Source of the DNA: an uncultured bacterium
GTDB taxonomy: Bacteria > Bacillota > Clostridia > Lachnospirales > Lachnospiraceae
NCBI GenBank assembly: GCA_947073545.1
Contig: CAMTMP010000003.1
Location: 62,001 to 126,000 of the forward strand
Reading direction: 5' to 3'
DNA: 64,000 nucleotides
Below are positions 1,512 through 63,776 of this stretch, in pieces (position 1 is the stretch's first letter; the number at the start of each line of letters is the position of its first letter). Below the pieces are notes generated by a model. It did not search any database and was not told the origin of the DNA. It saw only the letters and a program-made list of their open reading frames with translations. Made by a program: the position numbers and the translations under genes.

Positions 1512-2875
1512 GATTGAATAGAGATAAAAAGAAAGCTCTGTGTCTTTTCGCAGGGCTTCTCGCCTTTTTTCTGGGGCTGCTTGCGGTCGGCGGAGTCGGG
1601 GTTTATAATGATTCTGAACAATATATCACGATGCATATTCACAGGGAACCGCTCTACCCGCTCTATTTGGCGGCTTTCCGGGCTGTTTTCGGGGAAGGAT
1701 ATCTGACGGCGGCGATGGCCGGTCAGGGGATACTCACGGCGGTGGGAATCACGGCTCTCACAGAGTATCTGACCAAACGCTTTGGCCTCCGGCTGTGGGA
1801 AGAGCTGCTGCTCGTGGCCCTGCAGCTTTTGCCGCATCTGATTACACGGTATGTGTCGGCGCTGCACATTTTTTTGGAAAATTCGGTGATGAGCGAGGGG
1901 CTGTGTATTCCGCTTTTTACCATATTCGTATATTTTCTCTTGCGGATGCTTTTTGAGGGAAAGGGATGCGACGCGGTGGCTGCGCTCTTTTTCGCTTATC
2001 TGCTTTCCATGACCAGAGGACAAATGATGACAACGATTCTTCTGTGGGCGCTTCTTCTGGGCATTCGAATTTTATTGAACAAAAAATATCGAGCGTTATT
2101 CATGTGTGTGTCGGCTGTGATTCTTGTCTTTCTTTTGCGGGATTTGACGGTACATGTGTATAATTACGGCGTGACCGGGTACTTTATGGGCAATACCTAC
2201 GGGCAGGTGAATACGCTCACCAATGTGATCTATGCCTGCGACGAGGAGGACAGGGAAGTCTTTGCTGAGGGGGATCTGGAGCAAGCCTTTTTTGACAGCT
2301 TTTACCGTAAGTCGATGGAGCAGAGATTGAATTATGTGTACGCCGGGGACAGCTTTGACGAGCGGGCCGCTTATTTGGAGGAAAACCACGACATATTGAA
2401 GTTCCGGATTCTGGAGGCGGAGTTGTCGGCCTATTATTTTGGCCTGGGAGAGGTGGATTATTACGAACAGAGCAGCATGTCCGACGAGATGGCGGGAAAG
2501 ATGATCAAAAAACTTCTGCCGGCCTGTTTCGGACAGTGGATGTACGACTATATTCTTTTGTGCCGGAACGGATTTGTCAGGAGCATTGCGGTGGTGCATC
2601 CGCTTATCAATTTTGCCGCGCTTTTTCTCTATCTTCTGGCGGCGGGGCTTATATTGCGGCAGATGATTGTGAAAAGACGGCTTCAGGCGGCGGTCGTCAT
2701 GGGAACGGCGTTATTGTTTATTGCGGCGAATGTGTGCGCCACATCGATGACCATTATGTGTCTGTCGCGGTACATGATCTATGGGTTTTCCCTGTTCTAT
2801 ATCGCGCTGTATCTGCTAATCAGGGAAGCGTGTGAAAATAAAATGTTATGGAAGGATTTGGGAGGTAAAAAATGA
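1499..2875 (+). CDS. polytopic membrane protein of glycosyltransferase-C-like appearance
   Basis: A 458-residue protein with about nine to ten hydrophobic segments and one large hydrophilic loop (roughly residues 235-335). Near the N-terminus, 'YNDSEQYITMH...EPLYPLYLAAF' follows the first membrane segment. An acidic residue in this first outer loop is typical of lipid-linked-sugar-dependent GT-C enzymes. The same pattern ('FDDSGSYM...PLYPLF') recurs in the protein at 59058-60680, so the two look paralogous. The start is TTG at 1499, overlapping the dehydrogenase by 13 bp; TTG at 1514, preceded by GGAG, is an alternative. Its stop overlaps the epimerase ATG. No precise function can be assigned; a glycan polymerase or side-branch transferase is possible. 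Confidence 0.75.
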   Translation: MEIVGLNRDKKKALCLFAGLLAFFLGLLAVGGVGVYNDSEQYITMHIHREPLYPLYLAAFRAVFGEGYLTAAMAGQGILTAVGITALTEYLTKRFGLRLWEELLLVALQLLPHLITRYVSALHIFLENSVMSEGLCIPLFTIFVYFLLRMLFEGKGCDAVAALFFAYLLSMTRGQMMTTILLWALLLGIRILLNKKYRALFMCVSAVILVFLLRDLTVHVYNYGVTGYFMGNTYGQVNTLTNVIYACDEEDREVFAEGDLEQAFFDSFYRKSMEQRLNYVYAGDSFDERAAYLEENHDILKFRILEAELSAYYFGLGEVDYYEQSSMSDEMAGKMIKKLLPACFGQWMYDYILLCRNGFVRSIAVVHPLINFAALFLYLLAAGLILRQMIVKRRLQAAVVMGTALLFIAANVCATSMTIMCLSRYMIYGFSLFYIALYLLIREACENKMLWKDLGGKK

Positions 2876-3849
2876 GCTATCAGGACATCAAATTCGAAAA
2901 AGGGACGGTATTTCTTGTGACGGGGGGAGCCGGTTTTATCGGATCGAATCTCTGTGAGGCGCTGCTCGACATGGACTGCAGCGTGCGCTGTCTGGACGAT
3001 CTGTCCACGGGAAAGTATGAAAATATTGAGCACTTTATGGGGAAAGCCGGATTTACATTCGTAGAGGGAGACATCCGGGACTTTAAGACCTGTGAATCGG
3101 CCTGTGAGGGCGTGGATTATGTGCTGCATCAGGCGGCTTGGGGAAGCGTGCCCAGAAGCATGGAGATGCCGCTTGTCTATGAGGAGATCAATATTCGGGG
3201 CACGTTAAATATGATGGAGGCTGCGACACGGTGCGGTGTGAAAAAGTTTGTCTATGCTTCAAGCTCTTCCGTCTACGGGGATTCTACAGAGCTTCCGAAG
3301 AGAGAGGGACAGGAAGGGCGTGTGATCTCACCTTATGCCCTGACCAAGAAGACGGATGAGGAGTACGGACGGCTCTACAAGGAGCTGTACGGGCTTGACA
3401 CCTACGGTCTTCGCTATTTTAATGTGTTTGGCCGCAGACAGGACCCGGACGGGGCGTATGCGGCGGTGATTCCGAAATTTATAAAACAGCTTCTCCACGG
3501 GGAGACGCCCACCATCAACGGTGACGGGAAACAGTCCCGCGATTTTACCTATATTGACAATGTGATTGAGGCGAACCTGCGTGCCTGCAAGGCAGAAAGC
3601 AGCGCGGCGGGAGAGGCTTTCAATATCGGTGCGGGGGGACGTCTGTATCTGCTTGATATGTACGAGCAGCTCTGTCAGGCGCTCGGCGTTTCGGTAGAGC
3701 CGAATTTCGGTCCGGCGAGGGCAGGCGACGTGCGGGATTCCAATGCGGATATCAGCAAGGCGCGGAAACTGCTGGGGTATGATCCCGCCTATGATTTTGA
3801 GAAAGGGATAGGGCTGGCGATCGACTGGTATAGGGATTATTTAAAATAA
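2872..3849 (+). CDS. UDP-N-acetylhexosamine C4-epimerase (TviC/WbpP type SDR)
   Basis: A 325-residue extended short-chain dehydrogenase. GGAGFIG (18-24) binds NAD, ASSSSVYGD supplies the catalytic serine region, and Y155xxxK159 is the catalytic pair. 'QAAWGSVPRSMEMP' is the signature of the WbpP/TviC group, which interconverts UDP-GlcNAc/GalNAc or their uronic acids. The ATG sits in an ATGA overlap with the previous membrane protein, so translation is probably coupled. With the TviB-type dehydrogenase upstream, the predicted product is UDP-GalNAcA. Direction and exact substrate are not provable from sequence. Confidence 0.9.
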   Translation: MSYQDIKFEKGTVFLVTGGAGFIGSNLCEALLDMDCSVRCLDDLSTGKYENIEHFMGKAGFTFVEGDIRDFKTCESACEGVDYVLHQAAWGSVPRSMEMPLVYEEINIRGTLNMMEAATRCGVKKFVYASSSSVYGDSTELPKREGQEGRVISPYALTKKTDEEYGRLYKELYGLDTYGLRYFNVFGRRQDPDGAYAAVIPKFIKQLLHGETPTINGDGKQSRDFTYIDNVIEANLRACKAESSAAGEAFNIGAGGRLYLLDMYEQLCQALGVSVEPNFGPARAGDVRDSNADISKARKLLGYDPAYDFEKGIGLAIDWYRDYLK

Positions 3850-3882: not shown

Positions 3883-4803
3883 ATGAAATACAAGGTAGTT
3901 GTGTTCGGGGTAAAAGATACATCCGAGAATATCGTCGATTTTATTCAGAAGGAAATCTGTCCGGTCGATCTGGTCATCACGATCAGCCCGGAGGTGACGA
4001 AGAAGAATCAGGTGTCGGGCTACAAGGGGCTTTCTGTGCTGACCGAAAAGTACGGGATTCCGGTGCATGAGGCGGACAGCTACTTTTTGACGGATGAGAA
4101 GACGCAGAAGCTAATGCGGGAGAATGAGTTTGACATCGGTATTTCCATGGGTTGGCAGCGGTTGATTCCGGCTTCCGTGCTGGACTGTTTCAAGCACGGC
4201 ATTTACGGTTTTCACGGCAACAGCGGGTATCTGCCGTTCGGCAGAGGACGCTCCCCGCTAAACTGGTCCGTGATTCTGGGGGATACCCGTTTCAACCTGA
4301 ATCTGTTCCGCTATGACGAGAAGGCGGACAGTCCGAATGTGTTTGCTACGGAGATGTTTTCCATCACGCCCCACGACGATATCCGCACGGCGCAGTATAA
4401 GAATATGATCTGCTCGAAACGGCTGATCCGCAAGCTGCTTGCCGCTTATGAGGGCGGGCATATCGAGATCCGCAGGGATTCTAAGGACTTTGATTCCTGG
4501 TACGGGAAGCGCACCGCGGCGGACGGGAAAATCGACTTTCATAACAGAACACGTGATATTTATAATTTGATCCGCGGTGTGGCGGCGCCCTTTCCGGGGG
4601 CGTATGCCTATTGCAAAGAGCAGGAGGTGCGTGTCTGGGAGGCCCATCCATTTGACGAGATGATCGACTTTTCGGCTTATGCGCCGGGTGAGGTGATCGA
4701 TGTTTTTGACGGAAAACCCGTGGTGCGCACGGTGGACGGATCCCTCTTGATCGACCGCTACGAGAGCGGCCTTGCGCTGGAAGCGGGGGATATTCTGTCA
4801 TAG
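3883..4803 (+). CDS. Fmt-like formyltransferase, probable sugar N-formyltransferase
   Basis: A 306-residue protein of the formyl-THF-dependent formyltransferase family. The N-terminal catalytic domain shows HGN...LPFGRGRSPLNW and a C-terminal OB-like domain shows 'ADGKIDF...IRGVAAPFPGAY', both family hallmarks. It would transfer formyl from N10-formyl-THF to an amine in the cytosol. H111 and D149 match the catalytic His and Asp of ArnA. The catalytic Asn normally two residues before the His is Gly109, and there are two extra residues between the His and the LP motif, so activity or substrate may differ. It is too divergent and misplaced to be the housekeeping Met-tRNA formyltransferase. An amino-sugar nucleotide substrate fits the context. 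Confidence 0.8.
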   Translation: MKYKVVVFGVKDTSENIVDFIQKEICPVDLVITISPEVTKKNQVSGYKGLSVLTEKYGIPVHEADSYFLTDEKTQKLMRENEFDIGISMGWQRLIPASVLDCFKHGIYGFHGNSGYLPFGRGRSPLNWSVILGDTRFNLNLFRYDEKADSPNVFATEMFSITPHDDIRTAQYKNMICSKRLIRKLLAAYEGGHIEIRRDSKDFDSWYGKRTAADGKIDFHNRTRDIYNLIRGVAAPFPGAYAYCKEQEVRVWEAHPFDEMIDFSAYAPGEVIDVFDGKPVVRTVDGSLLIDRYESGLALEAGDILS

Positions 4804-10083: not shown

Positions 10084-11163
10084 ATGATGGGAAAATGGGT
10101 AAAAGCGGCATTCTTTCTCCTGCCGCTGTTTCTTTTCATAGGGTGGGTTAACTGGTATGTGGATTCTTACGCTCTTTTGCGGGTTACTTACGATGAGATT
10201 GCAGAGCAGATGGATGCAGGGAAAAATGTGGAGGGGTTGGAAGATTCCGACTACAATGACAGAAACCTTCTGGCGGCGCGTTTGAAGGGGATGGAGGATA
10301 TGCCGCAGGTCATGGTTCTCGGCTCCAGCCGGGTGTACACCTTCGACCATACCATGTTCGGGACGGATTCCTTTTACAATGCGGGGCTGTCGGAGGCTAC
10401 GATTTATGACCTTCTGGCGGTGGCGGGCATCTTGAGTGCGGAGGAGAAACTTCCGGAAACGGTTGTGATCGGCGTGGACGCTTTTCTTTTTAATAAGAGC
10501 CACGACAACGAGAAGTGGAAAGAATTGGAAAGTTACGCAAACTATATGTCGCTTACGCTGGACGGGAAACTGTCGCCGGAGCTTGCGAACCCGCACAAAG
10601 ATACGGGCAGGGAATTATTTAAGGCGCTCTCCTTAGACTATTTTCGCTACAATGTTACGCTTCTGCCCGACAGAAAACGGTTTGTGGTTTCCTACACGGA
10701 TGAATGGGAAACAGAAGGCTATCTCAAGCACGCTGACGGGAGTATCAGCTATCAGCGGGCGCTTCGGGAGGTGGATTCGGCGGATGTGGAGGAAATGACG
10801 AGACAGTCCATGGAGGAGCATGTGGTTTATCGCATGACAGACTACGCGGAGATAGACGAGCGGCATTTTTCACGGCTTTCAGAACTGGCGGATTATCTGT
10901 TGGATGCGGGCGTGGAGGTGATTTTATACTTGCCACCCTATTCGCCCATGATGTATAATTACATAGAATCTGAGGAGGCATTTCAGATCACGTCGGAAGT
11001 GGAGGAAAAGGTGAAAAATCTGGCGGTGGAGAAGGGGATTGCGCTCTACGGTTCCTACGATCCGGCGGGATGCGGCCTTGCAATGACGGATTTGTACGAC
11101 GTGTATCATGTGAAAACGGAGAAGACGGCTGACACTTACTATCCTGTGATTTGGGCCAAATGA
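10084..11163 (+). CDS. SGNH-fold membrane-anchored protein, DltD-like partner of MBOAT
   Basis: A 359-residue protein with one N-terminal membrane anchor (residues 7-24) and an extracytoplasmic domain. VMVLGSSRVYTFDH puts a GxSR-type serine at S81/S82, and near the C-terminus D339-V-Y-H342 gives the Asp-x-x-His of the SGNH hydrolase fold. This topology matches DltD and AlgX/J-type proteins that receive acyl groups from an MBOAT partner outside the cell. It lies 37 bp upstream of a DltA-like enzyme in the same direction. Overall similarity to true DltD is not obvious by eye, so the role is inferred from fold motifs and context. Confidence 0.65.
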   Translation: MMGKWVKAAFFLLPLFLFIGWVNWYVDSYALLRVTYDEIAEQMDAGKNVEGLEDSDYNDRNLLAARLKGMEDMPQVMVLGSSRVYTFDHTMFGTDSFYNAGLSEATIYDLLAVAGILSAEEKLPETVVIGVDAFLFNKSHDNEKWKELESYANYMSLTLDGKLSPELANPHKDTGRELFKALSLDYFRYNVTLLPDRKRFVVSYTDEWETEGYLKHADGSISYQRALREVDSADVEEMTRQSMEEHVVYRMTDYAEIDERHFSRLSELADYLLDAGVEVILYLPPYSPMMYNYIESEEAFQITSEVEEKVKNLAVEKGIALYGSYDPAGCGLAMTDLYDVYHVKTEKTADTYYPVIWAK

Positions 11164-11200
11164 TGTCCAGGCAGGGAACAGCGTCCGGAGGAAAGATAAA

Positions 11201-12757
11201 ATGAAAGCGAACGTTACCTACTGGCTGGACGAGACGGCGGCACGATTCCCCGATAAGACAGCTTATGCGGATGAGAAGAAAGAAATAACTTTCACAGAAT
11301 TGCGGGCGCAGGCCAGAGCCATCGCCTGTGAGCTGACAGAGAGAGGGCTGTTTAAAAAACCTGTCGCCGTTTTTCTGGAAAAAGGAGTGGAAGTGCTTGT
11401 CTCTTTTATGGGGGCGGCTTACAGCAGCAACTTTTACTCCCCGATCGATGTGGACATGCCGGGGAGCCGTGTCAATAAGATTCTGGAAGTGCTGGAACCC
11501 GCCGTGGTGATAACGACAGGGGCTTTGCGGGAAGTCTTTTCTGCGTATGATTATAAGGGGGCGTTCCTTCTGCTGGAGGATGTGTTGGCGCAGGAGGTTT
11601 CTTTGACTGCGGAAGGAGAGGGTGGCTTTGCGGAGCCGGAATTATCTGCGCGGGAGGCGGCTTTGGAGGCGGCGAGAAAGCGCGGCATAGACACCGATCT
11701 TTTGTATGTGCTCTTTACGTCCGGATCCACGGGCGTGCCAAAGGGCGTGACCATCAACCACCGGGCGGTGATCGACTACATAGACTGGGTAACAGAAACC
11801 TTTGAAATCACGGAGAAAGACAGTTTCGGCAATCAGGCGCCGTTTTACTTTGACAATTCCATTCTGGATATTTACAGCACCCTGAAAACGGGAGCGACAA
11901 CTTACATTATTCCGAAAACACTTTTTGCGCAGCCGGTGCCTCTTCTGGAATATTTGAAGGAAAAGAAGATCAATACCATTTTCTGGGTGCCGTCGGCGTT
12001 GATTGTGGTGGCGAAGCTGAAAGCGTTTAAAAATGTGGATTTGTCGAACACGCTTCGGCGGGTGTTATTCTGCGGTGAGGTCATGCCAAACAAGCAGCTT
12101 AACGTATGGCGGAAATTTTTGCCGGAGGTACAGTACGCGAACCTGTACGGCCCCACGGAGATCACGGATGCCTGCACGTATTATATTGTAAACCGGGAAT
12201 TTTCTGACGAGGAGCCGCTCCCCATCGGTTATCCTATGGCGAACACGGACATTCTTGTTTTAAATGAGAAAAACGAACCGGTGACGGGTGAGGAACCGGG
12301 TGAACTCTGCGTCAGAGGCACGTCCCTGTCCATGGGATACTACAGGAATCCGGAGAAGACGAAGGAGGCCTTCGTCCAGAATCCGCTGAATCAGGCGGCA
12401 CCGGAGCTGATTTACCGGACGGGAGATATCGTGAAATATAATGAGCGCGGGGAGATTATATATCTTTCCAGAAAGGACTTCCAGATAAAGCATATGGGAC
12501 ACAGAATCGAGCTGGGAGAGATTGAGACGGCGGTGTCCTCGCTTTCTGAAATTTCCCTGAACTGTTGTCTCTATGACGAGAAGCGTCAAAAGATCGTGCT
12601 TTTTATTGAGGAGGAGCTGGAAAAGGCGTATATCAATGAAAAGATTTCTCATCTTGTGCCGGAGTACATGCTGCCGAATAAGGTGATTCGGGTGGAGAAA
12701 ATGCCGATCAACGCCAACGGCAAGATTGACCGGGTAAAGTTGAAGGAGCTTTTATGA
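11201..12757 (+). CDS. DltA-like amino acid adenylating enzyme (aminoacyl-carrier-protein ligase)
   Basis: A 518-residue ANL-superfamily enzyme that would activate a carboxylate with ATP and load it as a thioester on a carrier protein. Visible core motifs: A3 LFTSGSTGVPKG near residue 172, A4 'FYFDNSILDIYSTL', A5 LYGPTE, A7 'YRTGD', A8 GHRIELGEIE and the A10 lysine K508 in NANGKID. VLFCGEV contains C291, matching the Cys that influences D-alanine selection in Bacillus DltA. There is no fused carrier domain, as in DltA. It overlaps the downstream formyltransferase by 4 bp, and the carrier protein and MBOAT genes follow. D-Ala or a related small amino acid is the best guess. Confidence 0.85.
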   Translation: MKANVTYWLDETAARFPDKTAYADEKKEITFTELRAQARAIACELTERGLFKKPVAVFLEKGVEVLVSFMGAAYSSNFYSPIDVDMPGSRVNKILEVLEPAVVITTGALREVFSAYDYKGAFLLLEDVLAQEVSLTAEGEGGFAEPELSAREAALEAARKRGIDTDLLYVLFTSGSTGVPKGVTINHRAVIDYIDWVTETFEITEKDSFGNQAPFYFDNSILDIYSTLKTGATTYIIPKTLFAQPVPLLEYLKEKKINTIFWVPSALIVVAKLKAFKNVDLSNTLRRVLFCGEVMPNKQLNVWRKFLPEVQYANLYGPTEITDACTYYIVNREFSDEEPLPIGYPMANTDILVLNEKNEPVTGEEPGELCVRGTSLSMGYYRNPEKTKEAFVQNPLNQAAPELIYRTGDIVKYNERGEIIYLSRKDFQIKHMGHRIELGEIETAVSSLSEISLNCCLYDEKRQKIVLFIEEELEKAYINEKISHLVPEYMLPNKVIRVEKMPINANGKIDRVKLKELL

Positions 12758-13611
12758 ATACGGATTTTGGGCGTGTTGTGGTGATCGGTTACGGTAAGGC
12801 CACGGGTGAGATATTGAAATATACGGATGACAGGCAGGCTGATTATGGTTATGAACTGGAATTTATCGAACATGAGCCACATGTCCTTGGCGTTACGAGG
12901 CAGATTTGTGAGGAGAGAGGGATTCCTTTCGCATCCATGCCGGATAAGCGGGAACTTGCCGGTTACCTTGGTGAAATACAGGAGAAAACACTGATTGTCT
13001 CCGCCAGCAACAATTTTTTGTTTCCGGCGGCAGTGGTAGAGCGGGAGAATATCACAATTATCAACTTTCACAATGCGCTTCTGCCGGAGTATCCAGGAAG
13101 AAACGCACCGAGCTGGGTTATTTATCAGGGTGAGGCGCGGACAGGCATCACATGGCATTATGTGACGGCGGGGGTGGACGAAGGAAACATCATTATACAA
13201 AAAAGCTGTGAGATCGGTTCCGACACGAAGGCGTATGAGCTGACGGAAACGTTGATGGATCTGGCATATGAGGGATTTTGCGAGTGCTTTGACAGCGTTT
13301 TGCAGGAAAATGCCGAGGCGAAGCCACAGGGCTTTTCGCCAGAGAGACGGATGTACCGTTCGTCCGAGATACCGGGGGGCGGGGTTCTGCATCCGGAGGA
13401 GCCGACGGAAAATGCATACCGCCTGCTTCGCAGTGTGGATTACGGGAAAAGCGGGATATTTCCCCCGGTGCAGATGGAAATTGACGGAAAACGGGCGGAA
13501 ATCCTGCGGTACCGGAAGATTGCCCCGGAAAAGAAAAAGGAGGGCACAGACATGCGCTATCTGCCGTTTGCGGACGGGGAGCTGCTGAAGATAAAATATC
13601 GTATGTTATGA
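12754..13611 (+). CDS. Fmt-like formyltransferase embedded in the Dlt-like cassette
   Basis: A 285-residue formyltransferase-family protein. INFHNALLPEYPGRNAPSW supplies N104 and H106, and VDEGNI supplies D142. This reproduces the Asn-x-His...Asp triad of ArnA and Fmt with the same His-to-Asp spacing (36). It would transfer formyl from N10-formyl-THF to an amino group. It starts in an ATGA overlap with the DltA-like gene and is followed by the carrier protein, so a carrier-bound aminoacyl thioester is an attractive substrate, as for formylation domains of nonribosomal synthetases such as gramicidin's. An amino sugar remains a possible substrate. Its C-terminal region is less like Met-tRNA formyltransferase. 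Confidence 0.8.
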   Translation: MNTDFGRVVVIGYGKATGEILKYTDDRQADYGYELEFIEHEPHVLGVTRQICEERGIPFASMPDKRELAGYLGEIQEKTLIVSASNNFLFPAAVVERENITIINFHNALLPEYPGRNAPSWVIYQGEARTGITWHYVTAGVDEGNIIIQKSCEIGSDTKAYELTETLMDLAYEGFCECFDSVLQENAEAKPQGFSPERRMYRSSEIPGGGVLHPEEPTENAYRLLRSVDYGKSGIFPPVQMEIDGKRAEILRYRKIAPEKKKEGTDMRYLPFADGELLKIKYRML

Positions 13612-13695
13612 AAAGAAAGAAACAGGAATCAAAAATCTGCGGATGCAGGTATAAAAGATAAGTGTGGATGAAAGAAGAGAAAGGGAAGCGGTTTT

Positions 13696-13926
13696 ATGGA
13701 AGAAAAAATTTTAGAAGTATTGGAAGAGTACTGTGAGGAGGCCCTAAGTTATACGGGTGACAACATGATGGAGGAGGGTGTGATCGACTCCTTTACGGTC
13801 ATCAATATTGTGAGTGAGCTGGAGGATGTTTTTGATATTGAAATCGACGCCAAGTATGTGGTGGCGGAGAATTTCAGGAACAAAGAGGCGATCATAGAAC
13901 TGGTACGACAATTGGTGGAAGAATAA
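13696..13926 (+). CDS. acyl/aminoacyl carrier protein (DltC-like)
   Basis: A 76-residue acidic helical protein of carrier-protein size. GVIDSFTVINIV places S32 as the probable 4'-phosphopantetheine attachment site; DSF replaces the commoner DSL, and DltC proteins have DSM here. It would carry the residue activated by the DltA-like enzyme in the cytosol and present it to the MBOAT protein, whose gene begins 3 bp after this stop. An 84-bp spacer with no evident gene precedes it. Which ligase loads it is inferred from adjacency. Confidence 0.85.
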   Translation: MEEKILEVLEEYCEEALSYTGDNMMEEGVIDSFTVINIVSELEDVFDIEIDAKYVVAENFRNKEAIIELVRQLVEE

Positions 13927-13929
13927 GAT

Positions 13930-15510
13930 ATGCAATTTTTATCTGCTGTATTTATTATACTGTGGGTGATTTCCTTTGCCCTCTATTATCTGGTACCGGC
14001 GAAGCGGCAGTGGATCATTTTGGCCGTGGCAAGCGGCCTGTTTTACGTGGCCGGGACGGGCGGGATTCCGGTGGGGATTGTCCTGACGGGGGCGGGCGCT
14101 TATGTAAGCGGCCTGTATGTAAAACGCAGTCTGGAAGCGCAGAAAGCGGCGCTTTCGGCTGTCGTGGAAAAAGAGCAGAAAAAGGCAGTAAAGCTGGGAT
14201 TTGAGAGACGCAGAAGACGTGTTCAAATCCTTTATTTTGTGTTGAGCCTGGGAATTTTGTTTTGCACGAAGTACATGGTTGTGATTCTGCCGTTTTTACA
14301 GAAGGCAGGACTGACCACACCCTACAGCGACGTTTTTTTTGCCCGTGTGGTGATGCCTTTGGGGGTGTCCTTTTACACGCTGACTGCGATCAGCTATGTG
14401 GTGGATGTGGGGCGGGAACAGTGTCAGGCACAGGAAAATCCGGTGAAACTTTTCCTGTTTTTGGCATATTTTCCGTCGATCACGCAGGGGCCTTTCAACC
14501 GCTATGGGAAATTGCAGAGGGAATTTGAGAGGGACCATGTCTTTGATTATGAGAGAATGCTTTTCGGTGTGCAGCGGTTTGTCTGGGGCGCGTTCAAAAA
14601 GCTGGTGATCGCGGACCGGATCAATCTTTTTGTGGGAAATGTGTTTGGGAGCGTGGACGGCGGATTTCCGGGCAGCATATACGCACTGGCCGTGGTTCTC
14701 TATATGATTCAGCTCTATGCGGATTTTTCCGGGTATATGGATATGGCGCTGGGAGTCAGCGAGACTTTCGATATTATTCTTCCGGAGAACTTTAAGAGAC
14801 CTTATTTTTCTAAGTCTGTGGCGGAATTTTGGCGCAGATGGCATATTACGCTTGGAACATGGTTTAAGGACTATGTGATGTTTTCCTTTGTCATGTCGGG
14901 GGCGGGACGGAAAATCGGCAAAGCGGCGAAGAAAAAGATGCCCCGCATGGGAAAGCATGTGACGGGCATTCTCGGGACGATGTTTGTCTGGCTGCTGACG
15001 GGTATGTGGCACGGCAGAACGATGAGCTATATTTTGTGGGGCGTCTACTACGGCGTGATTATGTGTGTTTCCCTCGTTTTGGAATCCCGGTACGGCGTGT
15101 GGAAGGAGAAACTTCATATAAAAGAAGGAAAAGCCTATGCCTTCTTCGCGATGGCCAGAACGTGGGTGATCGTGTTTGCGGCGGATGTGCTGATCCGTTC
15201 GGATAGCCTTTCTCAGGCGGGGCAGATTTATAGGGCGCTTCTTATGGACTTCCGGCTGAAAGAAGGAATCCTGGGCGTGACTGATTTTGGGCTTAGCAGA
15301 TACGGATTTTTGCTGCTGGCGGCGACATGTCTTTTGTGGCTTGCGGTTTCCGTCTGGGAGGAACAGGGGAAAGACGTGCGGCGGATGCTTGCGGCCAGTC
15401 CGATGGCGGTGAGATGGTGCTGCTATTACGGTGTGGTACTCCTTTTGGTGATTACGGGTATTTACGGTGGGAGCTACGATACGGCGGCATTTTTGTATCA
15501 AAGTTTCTGA
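13930..15510 (+). CDS. MBOAT-family membrane acyltransferase (DltB/AlgI-like)
   Basis: A 526-residue polytopic membrane protein with about ten to eleven hydrophobic segments. The hallmark FWRRWHITLGTWFKDY has H305, and the invariant active-site His is H361 in TGMWHG. MBOAT proteins of this DltB/AlgI/PatA branch move acyl or aminoacyl groups from a cytosolic thioester donor to the outside, usually with an SGNH partner. The start lies 3 bp after the carrier protein stop, which strongly couples the two. Together with the adenylating enzyme and the SGNH protein at 10084 it forms a complete Dlt-like set. The acceptor is presumably the exported polysaccharide but could be teichoic acid. Confidence 0.92.
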   Translation: MQFLSAVFIILWVISFALYYLVPAKRQWIILAVASGLFYVAGTGGIPVGIVLTGAGAYVSGLYVKRSLEAQKAALSAVVEKEQKKAVKLGFERRRRRVQILYFVLSLGILFCTKYMVVILPFLQKAGLTTPYSDVFFARVVMPLGVSFYTLTAISYVVDVGREQCQAQENPVKLFLFLAYFPSITQGPFNRYGKLQREFERDHVFDYERMLFGVQRFVWGAFKKLVIADRINLFVGNVFGSVDGGFPGSIYALAVVLYMIQLYADFSGYMDMALGVSETFDIILPENFKRPYFSKSVAEFWRRWHITLGTWFKDYVMFSFVMSGAGRKIGKAAKKKMPRMGKHVTGILGTMFVWLLTGMWHGRTMSYILWGVYYGVIMCVSLVLESRYGVWKEKLHIKEGKAYAFFAMARTWVIVFAADVLIRSDSLSQAGQIYRALLMDFRLKEGILGVTDFGLSRYGFLLLAATCLLWLAVSVWEEQGKDVRRMLAASPMAVRWCCYYGVVLLLVITGIYGGSYDTAAFLYQSF

Positions 15511-21221: not shown

Positions 21222-21288
21222 CGAGCGGTGTTTATGGAGACAGCGGGAAAAGTTGATTAAATAGCATGTGGTATTAAAGGAGAATTCT

Positions 21289-22461
21289 GTGAATAAGGAT
21301 AAGCAGACGGAAGAGAGAGAGTCCCGGTGTGCAGGGCAGGATAAGAGGGACAGCGGAGATAGCAAATATAACAGGTGGAATGGAAAAGTGCGGCGCGAAG
21401 CGCTGCAGGCGGCCGTCTTTGTGCTGCTGTTTTTTGCCATACTCTGGCCGGTGTCCTACATGGTGAGGACAAACGGTGACGTGAAGGATCGGTTTGCGGG
21501 CTTTTACGCGGAAAAAAAGGATTCTCTGGACGTTGTGATGATCGGTTCCAGCCCGGTATTTCCTTACTATGCGGCGCCAAAGCTGTGGGGGGAGACGGGA
21601 ATTGCGATGTATCCGCTTTCTACCAATGTACAGCGGCCGGCGGCCATGCGGTATCTGGCGGAGGAGGCGGAGAAAAGCCAGTCGCCTGCACTCTATATAT
21701 TCGAGATGCGTATGTTTACGATGGAAGAGGCGGGGCTGATGGAAAATATGGCTTATACCCGCGGTGTGACAGACAATCTGCGCCATTCCCCCCAGCGGAT
21801 CAGGACAATACGTGGACTGGTGCCCAAGGATGACGAGGAAGGCCGTCTGAGCTATTACTTTGATATTATGAAGTATCATACCAACTGGAAAATGCTGGCG
21901 CTCCCTTCTGAGTGGGCGAATATGTTTTACTGCCACAGACATCCGTTAAAGGGCTATACGTTCCGGGACGAGGTGGGACCTCAGCCAAGGCCTCTTTGCG
22001 GCGGCGCCAAGGGCGTTTTGGCGATGCCGCGGGAGCAGGAGACATATCTGCGCGATCTTATCGCCTATTTGAAGGAGAACGGATTGGAGGCGCTGTTTAT
22101 CGTCTCTCCTTACGGAGAATCGCCGGAGGAACAGCAGATGTTTAACTATATGGCAGACATTGTGGAAGAAAGCGGCTATGCGTTCTTAAATATGAATGAT
22201 TACTATGATGAGATCGGCATCGTCTTTGAGGAGGATTTTGCGGATTATGGCAGCCATACCAATGCGGTTGGCGCGGAAAAGTGTACGGCATTTCTGAAAG
22301 AATACCTGACGGCGCACTATGTGCTTCCCGACCATCGGGGAGACGCTTCCTACGCTTCGTGGGATAAAGCCTATGAGCTGTGGAAAACGAGGCAGGACGA
22401 GGCGGCCGGGACGATCAGGGAGCGGATTGCGAATGGGGATTACGCGCAGCGCGAAGAGTAG
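21289..22461 (+). CDS. second SGNH-like membrane-anchored protein
   Basis: A 390-residue protein with a hydrophilic, charged N-terminal tail (residues 1-38), one membrane segment (about 40-58) and an outer domain. VVMIGSSPVFPYY puts the putative nucleophile at S87/S88, and near the C-terminus DYGSHTNAVGAEK has the Asp/His plus 'xNxxGA' wording of SGNH/AlgX-like proteins. GTG at 21289 is taken as start because AAAGGAG precedes it with good spacing. No second MBOAT gene is nearby, so it may share the MBOAT protein at 13930 or act alone as a glycan O-acyltransferase or esterase. Confidence 0.6.
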   Translation: MNKDKQTEERESRCAGQDKRDSGDSKYNRWNGKVRREALQAAVFVLLFFAILWPVSYMVRTNGDVKDRFAGFYAEKKDSLDVVMIGSSPVFPYYAAPKLWGETGIAMYPLSTNVQRPAAMRYLAEEAEKSQSPALYIFEMRMFTMEEAGLMENMAYTRGVTDNLRHSPQRIRTIRGLVPKDDEEGRLSYYFDIMKYHTNWKMLALPSEWANMFYCHRHPLKGYTFRDEVGPQPRPLCGGAKGVLAMPREQETYLRDLIAYLKENGLEALFIVSPYGESPEEQQMFNYMADIVEESGYAFLNMNDYYDEIGIVFEEDFADYGSHTNAVGAEKCTAFLKEYLTAHYVLPDHRGDASYASWDKAYELWKTRQDEAAGTIRERIANGDYAQREE

Positions 22462-34712: not shown

Positions 34713-36125
34713 ATGAATCGAAGAATGAAACTGATCGAGAGCTATCTGCTGCTTCTCACGGATCTGGGCAGTATAGCTTTTGCCTATATCATTGCCATCC
34801 TGATACGGTACCGGAAGTTTTCCAGAGTCATGGAGCCGGAGCTGCATTTTGTGGTATGTATCGGATTTTTGCTGTTCTGCACGATTTACAGCTTCATGTT
34901 TGACTGGAACAGAGAGTTTATAAAAAGGGGTGTGCTGGTCGAATTTATAGCCGTTACCAAATTCAATGTCTTTATGGAGCTGTCCGTAATGGCCTTTCTC
35001 TTCATGCTGCAAAGGGGCGCGGACGTCTCCCGTCTTGTGATGGGGTATTTTGCCATTCTGAATATTTTTATCGTATGGCTTGTGAGGCTCGCCATGAAAA
35101 AGGCGCTGCGGGCCTGGTTCACGGCCAAGTCCAACATTGTCAAAATCATGATTATCACGAAGGACGCGGCGATGGAGAAAACCCTGTCCAAGCTGAAAGA
35201 GGCTATGGATATCAACTATGAGATCGTGGCGTTAGCCTGCGTGGACAAGGACAGGAAGGGCGAAACGGTGGACGGCATCGAAGTGAACGCGAACCGGGAA
35301 AACGTGCTCTCCATGGCGAGGCAGATGCCGCTCGACGAGGTGTTTATCAGTCTGCCGGATGAAGATATGGCCTATGTAAAGCATATCATTTACGATTTAG
35401 AATCCATGGGTGTGGCCTGCCATTACAATATAGACATCATCGAAAGACCCAGTAAGGAAGTGCGTGTGGGGAGCTTTGCGGGTTTCACGGTAGTGACTTA
35501 CTCTATCAACCATTTTGATTACAGGCGAATGGTGGTGAAGCGGGGCATAGACATTCTGGGCGGGCTGGTGGGCTGCCTGATCACGGTTGTGGCTACGCCC
35601 TTTGTGGCGGCTGCGATTAAGATGGACTCGCCGGGACCGGTGCTGTTTGCGCAGACCAGAATCGGTAAAAACGGCCGGCGTTTTAAGATTTATAAGTTTC
35701 GATCCATGTATATCGACGCGGAGGCGAGGAAGAAAGAGCTGGAAGCGCAAAACGAAATGCAGGGACTTATGTTTAAGATGGAAAATGACCCGCGCATCAC
35801 GAAGGTGGGTAAGTTTATCAGAAAGACAAGCATTGACGAGCTGCCGCAGTTTTTTAATATCGTAAAGGGAGATATGAGTCTGGTGGGCACAAGACCGCCC
35901 ACGGAGGGCGAGTTCGAGCAGTATAATTCCCACTACAGGCGAAGAATCAGTATGACGCCAGGACTCACGGGGCTTTGGCAGATCAGCGGCAGAAGTGAGA
36001 TTGTGGACTTCGACGAGGTCGTGAAACTGGATCTGGAGTATATCGACAACTGGACGCTGGGGCTGGATATCAAAATTCTGTTCCAGACAGTTTGGGTAGT
36101 GCTGACGGGGCGAGGATCGAAATAA
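34713..36125 (+). CDS. undecaprenyl-phosphate sugar phosphotransferase (WbaP/CpsE-like)
   Basis: A 470-residue polyprenol-phosphate hexose-1-phosphate transferase that begins repeat-unit synthesis by moving sugar-1-phosphate from UDP-sugar to undecaprenyl phosphate. Four hydrophobic segments lie in residues 8-125, a soluble Rossmann-like domain in 140-250, and a reentrant helix near 270-295. The catalytic domain shows DSPGPVLFAQTRIG, YKFRSMY, SIDELPQFFNIVKGDMSLVGTRPP and 'TPGLTGLWQISGR'. Length and order match the WbaP/CpsE family. The usual donor is UDP-Glc or UDP-Gal, not determinable here. Confidence 0.95.
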   Translation: MNRRMKLIESYLLLLTDLGSIAFAYIIAILIRYRKFSRVMEPELHFVVCIGFLLFCTIYSFMFDWNREFIKRGVLVEFIAVTKFNVFMELSVMAFLFMLQRGADVSRLVMGYFAILNIFIVWLVRLAMKKALRAWFTAKSNIVKIMIITKDAAMEKTLSKLKEAMDINYEIVALACVDKDRKGETVDGIEVNANRENVLSMARQMPLDEVFISLPDEDMAYVKHIIYDLESMGVACHYNIDIIERPSKEVRVGSFAGFTVVTYSINHFDYRRMVVKRGIDILGGLVGCLITVVATPFVAAAIKMDSPGPVLFAQTRIGKNGRRFKIYKFRSMYIDAEARKKELEAQNEMQGLMFKMENDPRITKVGKFIRKTSIDELPQFFNIVKGDMSLVGTRPPTEGEFEQYNSHYRRRISMTPGLTGLWQISGRSEIVDFDEVVKLDLEYIDNWTLGLDIKILFQTVWVVLTGRGSK

Positions 36126-48651: not shown

Positions 48652-50541
48652 ATGCGTAAAAGAACACGTATGGGTATCATACTGGCTGTTGCTGCTGCGG
48701 CAGTATGCTGTCTGTACTTTAAAGATAAGAATAATGTGCTGCTTCTGGTGGAGAACGGCCAGCCCTGCATCAGCGTCCGCACGGCTCAAAGTGAAAACAG
48801 GGTAGTCTTGTGGCAGGATGGAGAAGAAGATGGGGAAGCGCGGGGAGAGCCGGAGGGGTGGTTTTTTCTGCCGTCCTGTGCGGCCGACGGTAAAATTCGT
48901 CTGGGAGATACGGGCGAGAGCAGTGTGAGGATAGACGGACAGCTTTATCAGGAGGGAGACACCTTTACGTGGGAAGAGGGGTGTATGTATTCTTTTCAGG
49001 TGACGGACGCTTCCTACGAGTCACATACCTATGAGGCCGGTTTTATGAAATCGGCGGACATTCCGGCCATGTTTATCGACACCGCAAGCGGTGGGCTGGA
49101 CTATCTGCATGAAGATAAAGAAAATGAGGAGACGGGGCGCATCTGTGTGCTGCAGACGGACGGCGTCACGGAATATCAGGACGAGCTGCCGCGGATATCC
49201 GGCAGGGGTAACTCGACTTGGGAGTTTGAGAAAAAGCCCTATGCCCTTAAGCTGAAGGAGGATCAGCCGCTCTGCGGTCTGCGGGAGAGCGACCGCTGGC
49301 GTCTTTTGGCGATCTGGAACGAGGGAAGCAGGATGGGTGATAAGATAGCCATGGATCTGGCGCAGGAACTTGGTCTTGCCTACAGTACGCAGGGGACCTG
49401 GGTGGATCTGTATTTGAACGGCGAGTACCGGGGCATTTATTTTTTGACGGAGTCTGTGACGGTGGGATCGGGACGTGTTGATATATACGATATAGAAAAG
49501 GATAATAAACAAAAAAATGCTTCTATAGAGGCGGGAACGGCCAAACACTACGAGGAGGAAGACAACAAAGGATTTCTTTTGGAGGACGGCGGGGATGTGG
49601 ACGGCGGTTATCTGATCGAGAAAGACCATCCGAAGCACTGGGAAGCGGAGGACAGTGGCTTCCGCCTTTCCAGAGGGGATCTTTTCACCATCAATTCGCC
49701 GCGCCACGCGTCGAAGGAACAGGTGGCTTATATACAAAACTATGTGGAGGAAATCGATACTCTTGTGCAGGATGTGGATCCGGCGGTCTGGGAGAAGCTG
49801 GATCTGTCGAGCTTTGCCAAGCGGTTTCTGGTGGATGAGATCGCGCTGGAAATGGACACAGGCTCCACCAGCATGTATTTTTATAAGGACAAGGGCGACG
49901 AAAAGCTCTATTCCGGTCCGGCGTGGGATTATGACAACGCGTTTGGCGAGGACAGCAGCAGCGACAGTTTTTTTGTGAATTACGGGGAAACCATTGTGAA
50001 CAATAACGAGCGGCTGGCCATTTCCATCAATTGGTATCAGAAGCTTTATGAGACACCGGAAATGTATCAGTGTATTGTGGAGGCGTATGCGGGCGTTCTG
50101 CCCTTTTTTGAAAAACTGCTGGATACGGGCATCGACAGGTATGCGGATCGGATCAGGGCTTCCGTGGCGATGGACGATGCCAGATGGGAAAGCGCTCGAA
50201 CCGCCGATAACGACATGCCGCGGTATAGAAGTTTTGAGGCCAATGTCAATTATACGAAGTTCTTTCTGGCAAACCGCTTAAACTGCCTGTGCGCGAGATG
50301 GGGTGTGCCCCATGAGGCTTTCGTCACTCCGGCGGACGGGGAAATACACCGGGTTACTTTTCTGGTTTACGAGGGCGTGGTTGCGACGGTGGAAGTGCCG
50401 GACGGGGAAGTGCTTACCTATGTGCCGGATTATGACGGCGGTGTGTATCAGGGATGGACATACAGACGGGGCGGCGAGCCTTACAGCAGTTATATTCCCG
50501 TTTATGAGGATATGGAGCTGTACAACGCGAAGTGGGAGTAG
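48652..50541 (+). CDS. CotH-family kinase-like protein with C-terminal InlB-like repeat
   Basis: A 629-residue protein with an N-terminal membrane anchor/signal segment (about 8-22) and outer domain. The CotH fold is shown by PRISGRGNSTWEFEKKPYALKL (184-190 core GRGNSTW), 'DLYLNGEYRGIYFLTESV' and GPAWDYDNAFG (D426, D428), the metal-binding acidic pair of this atypical kinase group. The last 65 residues ('VTFLVYEGVVATVEVPDGE...YNAKWE') resemble one InlB/Listeria-Bacteroides repeat. CotH of Bacillus phosphorylates spore-coat proteins; here, within a glycan locus, the target is unknown. A paralogue is at 61857-63776. Confidence 0.85.
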   Translation: MRKRTRMGIILAVAAAAVCCLYFKDKNNVLLLVENGQPCISVRTAQSENRVVLWQDGEEDGEARGEPEGWFFLPSCAADGKIRLGDTGESSVRIDGQLYQEGDTFTWEEGCMYSFQVTDASYESHTYEAGFMKSADIPAMFIDTASGGLDYLHEDKENEETGRICVLQTDGVTEYQDELPRISGRGNSTWEFEKKPYALKLKEDQPLCGLRESDRWRLLAIWNEGSRMGDKIAMDLAQELGLAYSTQGTWVDLYLNGEYRGIYFLTESVTVGSGRVDIYDIEKDNKQKNASIEAGTAKHYEEEDNKGFLLEDGGDVDGGYLIEKDHPKHWEAEDSGFRLSRGDLFTINSPRHASKEQVAYIQNYVEEIDTLVQDVDPAVWEKLDLSSFAKRFLVDEIALEMDTGSTSMYFYKDKGDEKLYSGPAWDYDNAFGEDSSSDSFFVNYGETIVNNNERLAISINWYQKLYETPEMYQCIVEAYAGVLPFFEKLLDTGIDRYADRIRASVAMDDARWESARTADNDMPRYRSFEANVNYTKFFLANRLNCLCARWGVPHEAFVTPADGEIHRVTFLVYEGVVATVEVPDGEVLTYVPDYDGGVYQGWTYRRGGEPYSSYIPVYEDMELYNAKWE

Positions 50542-61856: not shown

Positions 61857-63776
61857 ATGGAAACATATATGACATACAGGATGAGGCGGCGGGGGATACT
61901 GTGTTTTCTTCTTATTTCCCTGATTGCAGTCGTGGTGTTAATGGAAAAAAGCGAACATATCCGTATTGAGAAAAACGGCGATTATATGAAGAACTTCCGT
62001 TTTGTGCTGGGTAATTCCGCATCGGAGCAGGAAATATTCTGTTTTGCGGATGAGGAGAAGAAAGTAAATTATTTGTTTCTCCCTTCCTACGCGAGACTTA
62101 AGGATGTGCGGATTTCTTTTGCCGGGGCCAGAAATGTGGTCTTTGCGGGAGCGAAAGGGGAAGTTTCGCTTGTAAACGGCGAGGACATCGGGGCACTTGC
62201 GTACGACGAAAAATATGATGTATATTTTTGTGGAAAAAACGGCGAAAAACTGGAAAAACAGGAAGTGATCATCATGCATTCGGCCGGTCTTCCGGCTGTT
62301 TTTCTGGAGACGGAAAGCGGTTCTATGGAAATGCTTAATGCGGATAAAAGCTACGCGGAAAAGGGCCGGATTGTTTTGTTTGATGCAGACGGCGCTGTGG
62401 TGTGTGCGGACAAACTGAACCGCATTTCAGGGAGAGGAAATTCCACTTGGGCTTACCCGAAGAAATCATACGGCATCCGGCTGAAAAACAAGGCTGATCT
62501 CTTTGGAATGGGAAGCGCAGACAACTGGATTCTTCTGAGTAATGTGGAAGACCGTTCTTATATCAGAAACAAGATTACCTATGACATGAGTGTGGCGGCA
62601 GGGATGACGGGATCGCCGCAGTCGCAGTATATTGATCTCTATGTAAATCACAGATATCATGGCATGTACCAGCTCTGTGAGAAAGTAGAGATCGATCCCG
62701 AGAGGGTGCCGATCAGAGATCTGGAGGCGGAAAACAAAAATTTGAACAAAGATATTGAGAACTGCGGACGTTTCGTAACCGAGACAAAGAAAGGGGCAGC
62801 GCTTTTCGCCGAGCCGCGCGATCTGACAGGGGGATACCTTTTAGAGAGGGATGTAGTGGAAAAATTTAATGGGGAAATCAGCGGATTTTATACGGAGACG
62901 CTGAAAGACCTGTATACGGTTAAAGAACCGTCATATGCCTCGGAGGCGCAGGTGGATTATATCAGCGGTCTGGTCAACGGGATGGAGCGGGCTGTCGCTT
63001 CGGAGGACGGCGTCGATCCGGAAACGGGGATGCACTACACCGATTATATTGATATACGCTCCTTTGCGCAGAAATATATTGTGGAAGAATTGTGTAAGAA
63101 TAACGGCGCGGGTGCGACCAGTTCTTTCTTCTATAAACCTGACGATTCGGTCAGTGAGAAGCTGTTTGCCGGGCCGGTGTGGGACTACGATAAGGCGTAT
63201 GCCAATCTGACGGGTATTAACGAATCGGCCAAGGATTTATGCTACCTGATACAGCGGGGAACAGATCCGACGACGCTTTTTTGGCATTTGAACAGGCATA
63301 CCGATTTCCGGCAGGCGGTGTCGGTGTGCTACCGGGAGTTTTTTGCAGACTATATGCTGGACATCATGGACGAAAAAATTGACGAATATATATCGGAGAT
63401 TGACACGGCCAAGGACATGGATCTGGTCAGATGGAAGGAAATTTATGGGGAATCGGTGGATTATGAGGGCGAGGTACAGCGGATTCGGGATTTCCTGTCG
63501 GAGCGAAAGCCGTTTCTGGATGCAGTATGGGCAGGAGAAAAAGAAGTATGTACAGTACAGTTTCTAACGGAAGAGGGAATCACATGCAACTACGTGAGTG
63601 TGGTAAAGGGAGCGTGTATGGAGAGAATGCCGGGAGCGGAGCCGGGCACACAGGAAGGGAATCGGGTGTTTGACGGCTGGTATACGCAGGACGGGACGCT
63701 TATTGACAGGGAGACGCCGATCGAGGAGGATATCACTGTGTATGCGAAATATCATGAAGTATCCGAAACGGGTTGA
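61857..63776 (+). CDS. CotH-family kinase-like protein with InlB-like repeat, second copy
   Basis: A 639-residue protein with an N-terminal membrane segment (about 11-27). CotH landmarks: ISGRGNSTWAYPKKSYGIRL (core at 190-198), 'DLYVNHRYHGMYQLCEKVEI', 'GGYLLERD' and GPVWDYDKAYA (D443, D445). The C-terminal 65 residues, 'VQFLTEEGITCNYVSVVKG...VFDGWYTQDGTLIDRETPI', are a clear InlB/Listeria-Bacteroides repeat ending in 'ITVYAKY'. It is paralogous to the protein at 48652-50541. An outside phosphotransfer role on a protein or glycan is possible. AAGGAG lies very close to the ATG; ATG at 61869 is an alternative. Confidence 0.88.
   Translation: METYMTYRMRRRGILCFLLISLIAVVVLMEKSEHIRIEKNGDYMKNFRFVLGNSASEQEIFCFADEEKKVNYLFLPSYARLKDVRISFAGARNVVFAGAKGEVSLVNGEDIGALAYDEKYDVYFCGKNGEKLEKQEVIIMHSAGLPAVFLETESGSMEMLNADKSYAEKGRIVLFDADGAVVCADKLNRISGRGNSTWAYPKKSYGIRLKNKADLFGMGSADNWILLSNVEDRSYIRNKITYDMSVAAGMTGSPQSQYIDLYVNHRYHGMYQLCEKVEIDPERVPIRDLEAENKNLNKDIENCGRFVTETKKGAALFAEPRDLTGGYLLERDVVEKFNGEISGFYTETLKDLYTVKEPSYASEAQVDYISGLVNGMERAVASEDGVDPETGMHYTDYIDIRSFAQKYIVEELCKNNGAGATSSFFYKPDDSVSEKLFAGPVWDYDKAYANLTGINESAKDLCYLIQRGTDPTTLFWHLNRHTDFRQAVSVCYREFFADYMLDIMDEKIDEYISEIDTAKDMDLVRWKEIYGESVDYEGEVQRIRDFLSERKPFLDAVWAGEKEVCTVQFLTEEGITCNYVSVVKGACMERMPGAEPGTQEGNRVFDGWYTQDGTLIDRETPIEEDITVYAKYHEVSETG

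Follow-up and report, generated by a model that had tools for sequence, protein, structure and literature searches.

A Dlt-like cassette with an embedded formyltransferase in a Lachnospiraceae polysaccharide locus, and its possible role in N-formyl-aminoacyl decoration of a surface glycan

Among the known membrane-bound O-acyltransferase (MBOAT)–SGNH pathways, PatA auto-acylates the tyrosine of its own C-terminal FxYxxF motif, whereas in the Dlt system the same motif sits on DltX, and the pathways other than Dlt are without a carrier protein in the sections of PMC12148441 drawn on here. The carrier is evidently missing from those pathways because acyl-CoA is used. Here we describe a cassette from an uncultured Lachnospiraceae bacterium, located in a 64,000-nucleotide stretch of DNA (positions 62,001 to 126,000 of contig CAMTMP010000003.1, assembly GCA_947073545.1; hereafter, the window), in which a Dlt-like amino acid ligase, a carrier protein and an MBOAT protein are encoded together with a formyltransferase (FT). 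The cassette is real and recurrent. Its probable function, in our view, is to make an N-formyl-aminoacyl-carrier whose acyl group is exported onto the surface polysaccharide of the surrounding locus.

The ligase, FT, carrier and MBOAT genes are co-directional within positions 11201-15510; the ligase and FT genes overlap by 4 bp, while 84 bp separate FT from carrier and 3 bp separate carrier from MBOAT. The parts are as follows:

10084..11163, + strand: probable SGNH/DltD-like extracytoplasmic acyl transferase, named from motifs and from a hydrophobic N terminus seen by eye
11201..12757, + strand: ligase gene, Dlt-like amino acid adenylating enzyme of 518 amino acids with the predicted pocket DNLFLCLDAK
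12754..13611, + strand: FT gene, 285 amino acids, PF00551
13063..13065, + strand: predicted catalytic Asn104 of the FT
13069..13071, + strand: predicted catalytic His106 of the FT
13177..13179, + strand: predicted catalytic Asp142 of the FT
13696..13926, + strand: carrier gene, DltC-like acyl carrier protein of 76 amino acids
13789..13791, + strand: Ser32 of the carrier, the expected phosphopantetheine site
13930..15510, + strand: MBOAT transmembrane acyltransferase, DltB/PatA-like, 526 amino acids, PF03062
15010..15012, + strand: invariant His361 of the MBOAT
15490..15507, + strand: C-terminal FLYQSF of the MBOAT, matching the FxYxxF acyl-shuttle hexapeptide as given in the sections used of PMC12148441

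An initial annotation of this DNA had proposed a cassette of these five genes. Its 4-bp overlap and 3-bp spacing, the FCGEV and K508 of the ligase, the Asn104/His106/Asp142 triad, S32 and H361 are all correct, and the ligase, FT, carrier and MBOAT calls were confirmed; its fifth member, the SGNH protein, is only probable. The 10084-11163 protein has no Pfam or NCBIfam match, and it was not listed at E ≤ 1e-6 by a profile of the SGNH/DltD-like genes of related cassettes; the call comes from a GSS at residue 80 and a DVYH (DxxH) at residue 339. Elsewhere in the window, a protein of 397 amino acids at 21268-22461, which has no Pfam match, gives a weak match to the same profile (28 bits).

The ligase scores 337 bits against TIGR01733 (cut-off 317.4) and carries FCGEV at residue 290. 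Its scores lie below the curated DltA cut-offs (TIGR01734, 317.1 bits vs. 559.85; PRK04813, 322.6 vs. 476), and by this measure it is not a DltA. LgrA tops the list of PDB matches because LgrA holds two A domains; its best single stretch scores 220 bits, like the whole-sequence scores of TycA, GrsA and DltA (224-233 bits). The carrier scores 19.9 bits against PF00550, slightly under the cut-off of 20.8, and is under the DltC cut-offs (37.6 vs. 68 and 23.9 vs. 52.35), as the MBOAT is under that of DltB (153.1 bits vs. 375). The FT matches PF00551 with an E-value of 4.2e-20, and its predicted model has a mean predicted local distance difference test score (pLDDT) of 95.2. The Asn/His/Asp triad is invariant in 39 of 39 aligned FTs, and the window FT falls below the curated cut-offs for sugar FTs (PRK06988, 75.9 vs. 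316 bits; PRK08125, 57.8 vs. 777; PRK07579, 40 vs. 238). Forty-five cassette FTs form one clade against 58 other FTs (Shimodaira–Hasegawa-like support, SH-aLRT, 98) in a tree that omits the second FT of the window, the FT of genome G007, WbkC and ArnA.

The association of FT and ligase was examined in a scan of named genomes that was seeded with FTs alone, the ligase not being sought. In 42 of the 49 loci returned, the FT scores above 240 against the profile, and seven weak ones (L163-L169, score below 80) were excluded; five seed FTs fall within the 42 (L121, L123, L137, L142 and L160), the seed design under-samples distant FTs, and loci cut by contig ends were retained. A ligase is adjacent on the same strand or fused in 37 of the 42 loci (33 of 37 once the five seeds are removed), and this recurrence rejects a chance adjacency. 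A carrier is present in 29 of the 42, an MBOAT in 26, an amidotransferase-like gene in 16 and a ketosynthase III in 7. The five loci without an adjacent ligase are L122, L123, L153, L141 (ligase about 4 kb off) and L161 (contig cut); in L122, L123 and L153 the neighbours of the FT are a divergent MBOAT and an amidotransferase-like gene, with no ligase or carrier recognised nearby. Ten loci have neither MBOAT nor ketosynthase in the available DNA (L127, L132, L139, L145, L152 and L154-L158); a carrier was recognised among them only in L155, and contig ends truncate some of the ten.

Ligase and FT are fused in three loci of one clade, complete in L124 (792 amino acids) and L133 (804 amino acids) and up to the contig end in L139. 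The FT comes last in all three, and L124 and L133 encode the carrier separately. A predicted model of the L124 fusion shows two ordered domains with a weak stretch at residues 501-510 (mean pLDDT 91.4, predicted template modelling score 0.78), and it does not establish how the domains are arranged. The distances among ligases and among FTs are correlated (r 0.59 for 39 pairs, with 0 of 2000 permutations as high; r 0.42 for pairs with ligases more than 0.5 apart) in a test that excluded L139 and did not remove shared ancestry. This correlation suggests that the two proteins have mostly moved as a pair, though shared descent of the host species would by itself strengthen it.

In the search of other genomes that the initial annotation had proposed, ligase, FT, carrier and MBOAT, or its start, recur in congeners and in other genera. 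Two congeners, G679 (L171) and G680 (L170), have ligase, FT, carrier and the start of an MBOAT, with FTs 64 and 69 percent identical to that of the window, respectively, whereas a third, G060, has the ligase without an FT. Within the same family, 48 of 299 genomes (that of the window counted) have an FT match at E ≤ 1e-10, and eight besides the window's own are better than 1e-29. Five of these eight have ligase, FT, carrier and MBOAT together (G179, G276, G204, G082 and, in another order, G147); in G108, ligase, carrier and FT belong to a single cluster with ketosynthases, the FT lying about 7 kb from the carrier, and G176 has FT, MBOAT and an amidotransferase-like gene with no ligase adjoining. 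Ligases of this class are far commoner than the FT, occurring in 149 of the 299 genomes at E ≤ 1e-70. When 391 genomes were sampled across the class, an FT above 350 bits was found only in the window's genome and G108 (next best 125), so the cassette is not common. The records of the named-genome scan include Robinsoniella peoriensis, Anaerosacchariphilus polymeriproducens, Eubacterium sp. 14-2, Oscillibacter sp. 1-3 and Paenibacillus nanensis, and metagenome-assembled genomes labelled Bacteroidia, Bacteroidales and Chitinophaga (L146, L148 and L151). L134, binned as Ornatilinea (Chloroflexota), falls among Lachnospiraceae in both the ligase and the FT tree and may be a misplaced or misbinned contig.

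Two further arrangements were seen in these loci. L131 and L135 encode another, distant ligase-like protein between FT and carrier, followed in L131 by genes that look by eye like those of an ATP-binding cassette (ABC) transporter. In L121, L125, L126, L128, L129 and L142, response regulator and histidine kinase genes share the locus with the FT cassette, as if these cassettes were regulated on their own.

The C-terminal hexapeptide FxYxx[FY] is found in the window MBOAT, whose terminus is exactly FLYQSF, and in 24 of 27 MBOATs from FT loci; of the other three, L130 and the second MBOAT of L147 are both cut by an end, and L140 has a split frame. With a Pat-type shuttle on the MBOAT and an adjoining ligase and carrier, the cassette appears to join the donor side of Dlt to a Pat-type acceptor side. 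The hexapeptide is also present in 13 of the 15 listed MBOATs of FT-less relatives, and this hybrid is thus not special to FT cassettes.

The gene order and its recurrence, the catalytic residues, the FT-ligase fusions of relatives and the shuttle motif form the observed basis of our proposal, and from them we infer the chemical steps, the order of ligase before FT, and that an amino acid and a polymer are the substrates. The ligase would adenylate a free amino acid and load it onto the phosphopantetheine of Ser32 of the carrier. The FT would then formylate the amine of the carrier-bound aminoacyl group, presumably with 10-formyl-tetrahydrofolate as the donor, as in its relatives; this step is modelled on the F domain of linear gramicidin synthetase. 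The MBOAT would move the N-formyl-aminoacyl group from the carrier to the tyrosine of its own FLYQSF, and the SGNH-like protein would pass it to a hydroxyl of the polymer. The initial annotation is partly supported: the N-formyl-aminoacyl-S-carrier that it postulated, with transfer by the MBOAT, gains comparative support from the 37 of 42 adjacencies, the three fusions, the FT clade, the triad in 39 of 39 FTs and the shuttle motif.

The predicted ligase pocket was considered as an explanation for the presence of the FT and rejected, as the same pockets are common to FT-linked and FT-less ligases. The window pocket, DNLFLCLDAK, is identical in L171, which has the FT, and one letter off in L170; it also occurs in the FT-less L107 and L159_1179 (GNAT-like neighbour), which are the nearest FT-less ligases to that of the window, and L104 is one letter off. 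Likewise, DVKIMSLCNK or near variants are shared by FT-linked ligases, ligases beside a pyridoxal phosphate (PLP) decarboxylase-like gene and plain FT-less cassettes. Cassettes thus seem to differ in how they tailor one activated amino acid, and some to leave it unmodified. The lysine at position 239 of DVKIMSLCNK may hint at a carboxylate-bearing amino acid in the main FT group; this position is leucine in the window group. The first pocket residue, an aspartate (position 235 of GrsA) which we take to be the holder of the free alpha-amine in amino acid ligases, is present in all 40 FT-linked ligases and in 22 of the 23 that are not FT-linked. Since the FT-linked ligases keep this residue, formylation most likely follows carrier loading.

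With the same predicted pocket found with and without the FT, formylation looks like an optional tailoring. The 20 FT-less loci are mostly top-scoring ligases and paralogs from FT genomes, not a random draw, and among them are L103 (G108), with an FT at a greater distance, and L101 (G176), from a genome that has FT and amidotransferase-like genes at another place. FT-less cassettes with a shared pocket make the FT optional and do not thereby decide its substrate. A single ancient FT-ligase pair is unsupported by the ligase tree, although the cassette FTs are one clade: in this quick tree of 40 FT-linked and 23 other ligases, eight changes are counted, with the same result when L103 and L141, whose FT lies farther off within the same cluster or locus, are left out. 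In eight FT-less loci (L105, L106, L108, L109, L110, L113, L117 and L120), a LysA-like PLP decarboxylase gene adjoins the ligase, mostly between ligase and carrier; the Pfam/NCBIfam scan covers L105 only.

New in this analysis are the amidotransferase-like and ketosynthase III partners of the FT. A TIGR03573 amidotransferase-like gene stands beside the cassette in 16 of 42 FT loci vs. 0 of 20 FT-less loci. The three copies that were scanned reach 145-178 bits and so fall short of the cut-off, 203.2; the SGGxDS loop is present in 11 of the 16 proteins, and the four-cysteine pattern in all 16 in a loose form and in 9 in the exact published form. Loop and pattern are marks of an amidotransferase family whose members convert an N-acetyl group into an amidine, according to the portions of PMC10607449 used here. 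By analogy, a step from formyl to formimidoyl is a natural guess, so a formimidoyl product is possible for these cassettes, where the amidotransferase-like gene could restore a positive charge. With this, and with a ligase that is not a DltA by curated cut-off, the neutral counterpart of D-alanylation that the initial annotation saw in the cassette can only be a tentative idea. In the window's genome there is no TIGR03573 match at E ≤ 0.001, and control genomes also had none over the cut-off. Most of the seven FT loci with a ketosynthase III also have short-chain dehydrogenase/reductase (SDR) genes and a metallo-beta-lactamase-fold protein, and some an Antibiotic_NAT-type transferase; a DegT aminotransferase is found in four of the seven vs. 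0 of the 26 FT loci with MBOAT. In L143, L146, L148, L151, L159 and L103, FT-ligase-carrier modules or related ones occur together with ketosynthase III, SDRs, a metallo-beta-lactamase-fold protein or an AAC(3)-type transferase. Modules of this type perhaps make elongated acyl groups for amino sugars.

More tentatively, and with less than even confidence, we suggest that bacterial surface-glycan substituents are made on a modular carrier-protein mini assembly line, with a Dlt-like ligase that loads an amino acid, a variable tailoring slot beside it, and either export by MBOAT or extension by ketosynthase III onto an amino sugar. The slot might hold an FT, an FT with an amidotransferase (giving N-formimidoyl), a PLP decarboxylase-like protein, a GNAT-like protein or nothing, and the window would represent the formyl-only form.

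Several observations weigh against an exported N-formyl-aminoacyl group. The SGNH label is weak. The best solved sequence match of the FT is the sugar formyltransferase WbkC, its top fold matches are 10-FTHFDH, Fmt, WbkC and ArnA, and the LgrA F domain was not found among the 50 fold-search matches listed; these mix sugar and other FTs, so that the search supports the fold and is uninformative for telling a sugar FT from an aminoacyl FT. L145, L152, L154 and L156-L158 have ligase and FT with no recognised carrier or MBOAT, and in the family draw G007 has a strong FT with only weak ligase matches nearby. The initial annotation had named absence of the FT from otherwise similar cassettes as evidence against its idea, and such cassettes exist: L101, L102 and L119 are ligase-carrier-MBOAT cassettes that have the main FT group's pocket but lack an adjoining FT. 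In addition, the FT-linked ligases are not one clade, at least seven of the eight changes being forced by starred branches. Finally, DegT aminotransferase genes, which point to amino sugars, lie on both sides of the window: of 12 DegT matches in the genome, one on the same contig ends 4.7 kb to the left and one starts 4.2 kb to the right.

The main competing explanation is a sugar nucleotide substrate, in which the FT formylates a nucleotide-activated amino sugar, its position is a matter of operon convenience, and ligase, carrier and MBOAT add a plain amino acid. WbkC, closest to the FT by sequence among solved structures and one of its top matches by fold, is titled a GDP-linked amino sugar formyltransferase, and the flanking DegT genes, the large polysaccharide locus and the existence of FT-less cassettes fit this explanation too. 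However, the three ligase-FT fusions speak against it, blast with three DegT queries from the window's genome finds no DegT in the available DNA of the 26 MBOAT-bearing FT loci, and L124 and L123 appear to lie beside groES/groEL-like and gyrase-like genes, respectively (by eye, from N-terminal letters). The ketosynthase III in 7 of 42 FT loci is a setting of carrier chemistry and counts for an acyl-carrier substrate, and the window itself has a better candidate for a sugar FT in its ArnA-like second FT (3883-4803); on balance, we regard the sugar nucleotide as unlikely. Alternatively, the formyl group could be an intermediate, either made into formimidoyl where an amidotransferase-like gene exists or serving as a protecting group for the amine in the transfer or the ketosynthase extension, to be removed afterwards. 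The unequal distribution of the TIGR03573-like gene, the SGGxDS loop in 11 copies and the seven ketosynthase loci speak for such a role, whereas the 5 of 16 copies without the loop, the sub-cut-off scores of the three scanned copies and the lack of a TIGR03573 match in the window's genome speak against it, and we hold it to be quite improbable. Adjacency and fusion are compatible with either order of steps, so the FT might instead formylate the free amino acid before the ligase activates the N-formyl amino acid; with the amine-binding aspartate kept in 40 of 40 FT-linked ligases and pockets common to FT-less ligases, which must take a free amino acid, this order is very unlikely. Formylation on the carrier followed by export thus remains our preferred reading.

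The remainder of the window, from a genome of 4.37 Mb in 94 contigs, is a large polysaccharide locus with many glycosyltransferases, two ABC transporters, a pyruvyl transferase and a Bac_transf sugar transferase (34713-36125). The second FT, which is PRK06988-like with a Formyl_trans_C domain, adjoins a TviB-like dehydrogenase (195-1511) and a TviC-like epimerase (2872-3849). Two CotH kinase-like proteins (48652-50541 and 61857-63776) also belong to this locus.

If the proposal is true, N-formylation in the style of nonribosomal peptide synthetases enters the decoration of bacterial surface polymers, and a class of glycan substituents, N-formyl- and perhaps N-formimidoyl-aminoacyl esters, becomes recognisable from sequence. 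In Lachnospiraceae and elsewhere, the surface would carry a different charge, and its esters would have a different stability, than with D-alanylation; nuclear magnetic resonance and mass spectrometry of the carrier offer a direct test of the prediction. No description of such a cassette was recognised in the parts of the open-licence PMC literature consulted.

The cassette is a variant of the Dlt/MBOAT-SGNH kind and, judged by curated cut-offs, lies outside Dlt. It resembles Dlt (DltA, DltC, DltB, DltD and DltX; D-alanylation of teichoic acid) in the clustering of ligase, carrier and MBOAT with a probable SGNH protein, in the MBOAT histidine and in an expected carrier-bound aminoacyl donor. 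It differs in its FT, in a ligase, MBOAT and carrier that score under the DltA, DltB and DltC cut-offs, in its setting in a polysaccharide locus, and in a shuttle peptide that sits on the MBOAT itself, whereas that of Dlt is on the DltX microprotein. The hexapeptide at the MBOAT C terminus is instead shared with PatAB/AlgIJ (PMC12148441, in the sections used); PatA uses acetyl-CoA, whereas the cassette has an adjoining ligase and carrier. As in the F-A-PCP module of LgrA, a formyltransferase would work with an adenylation enzyme and a carrier, but here as separate proteins or as FT-last fusions, the reverse of F-A, and with exit expected via the MBOAT, not a peptide assembly line. WbkC and the N domain of ArnA share the fold, the triad and the expected formyl donor, whereas the cassette FTs stand apart from 58 other FTs (WbkC and ArnA not in that tree), are tied to ligases, and have no DegT found near their MBOAT-type loci. 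The N-acetyl sugar amidotransferases WbuX and WbpG have their likeness only in genes of relatives, through the SGGxDS loop (11 of 16) and the loose four-cysteine pattern (16 of 16); these genes differ in lying beside FT cassettes and in the sub-cut-off scores of the three scanned copies, and the genome of the window has no match to them.

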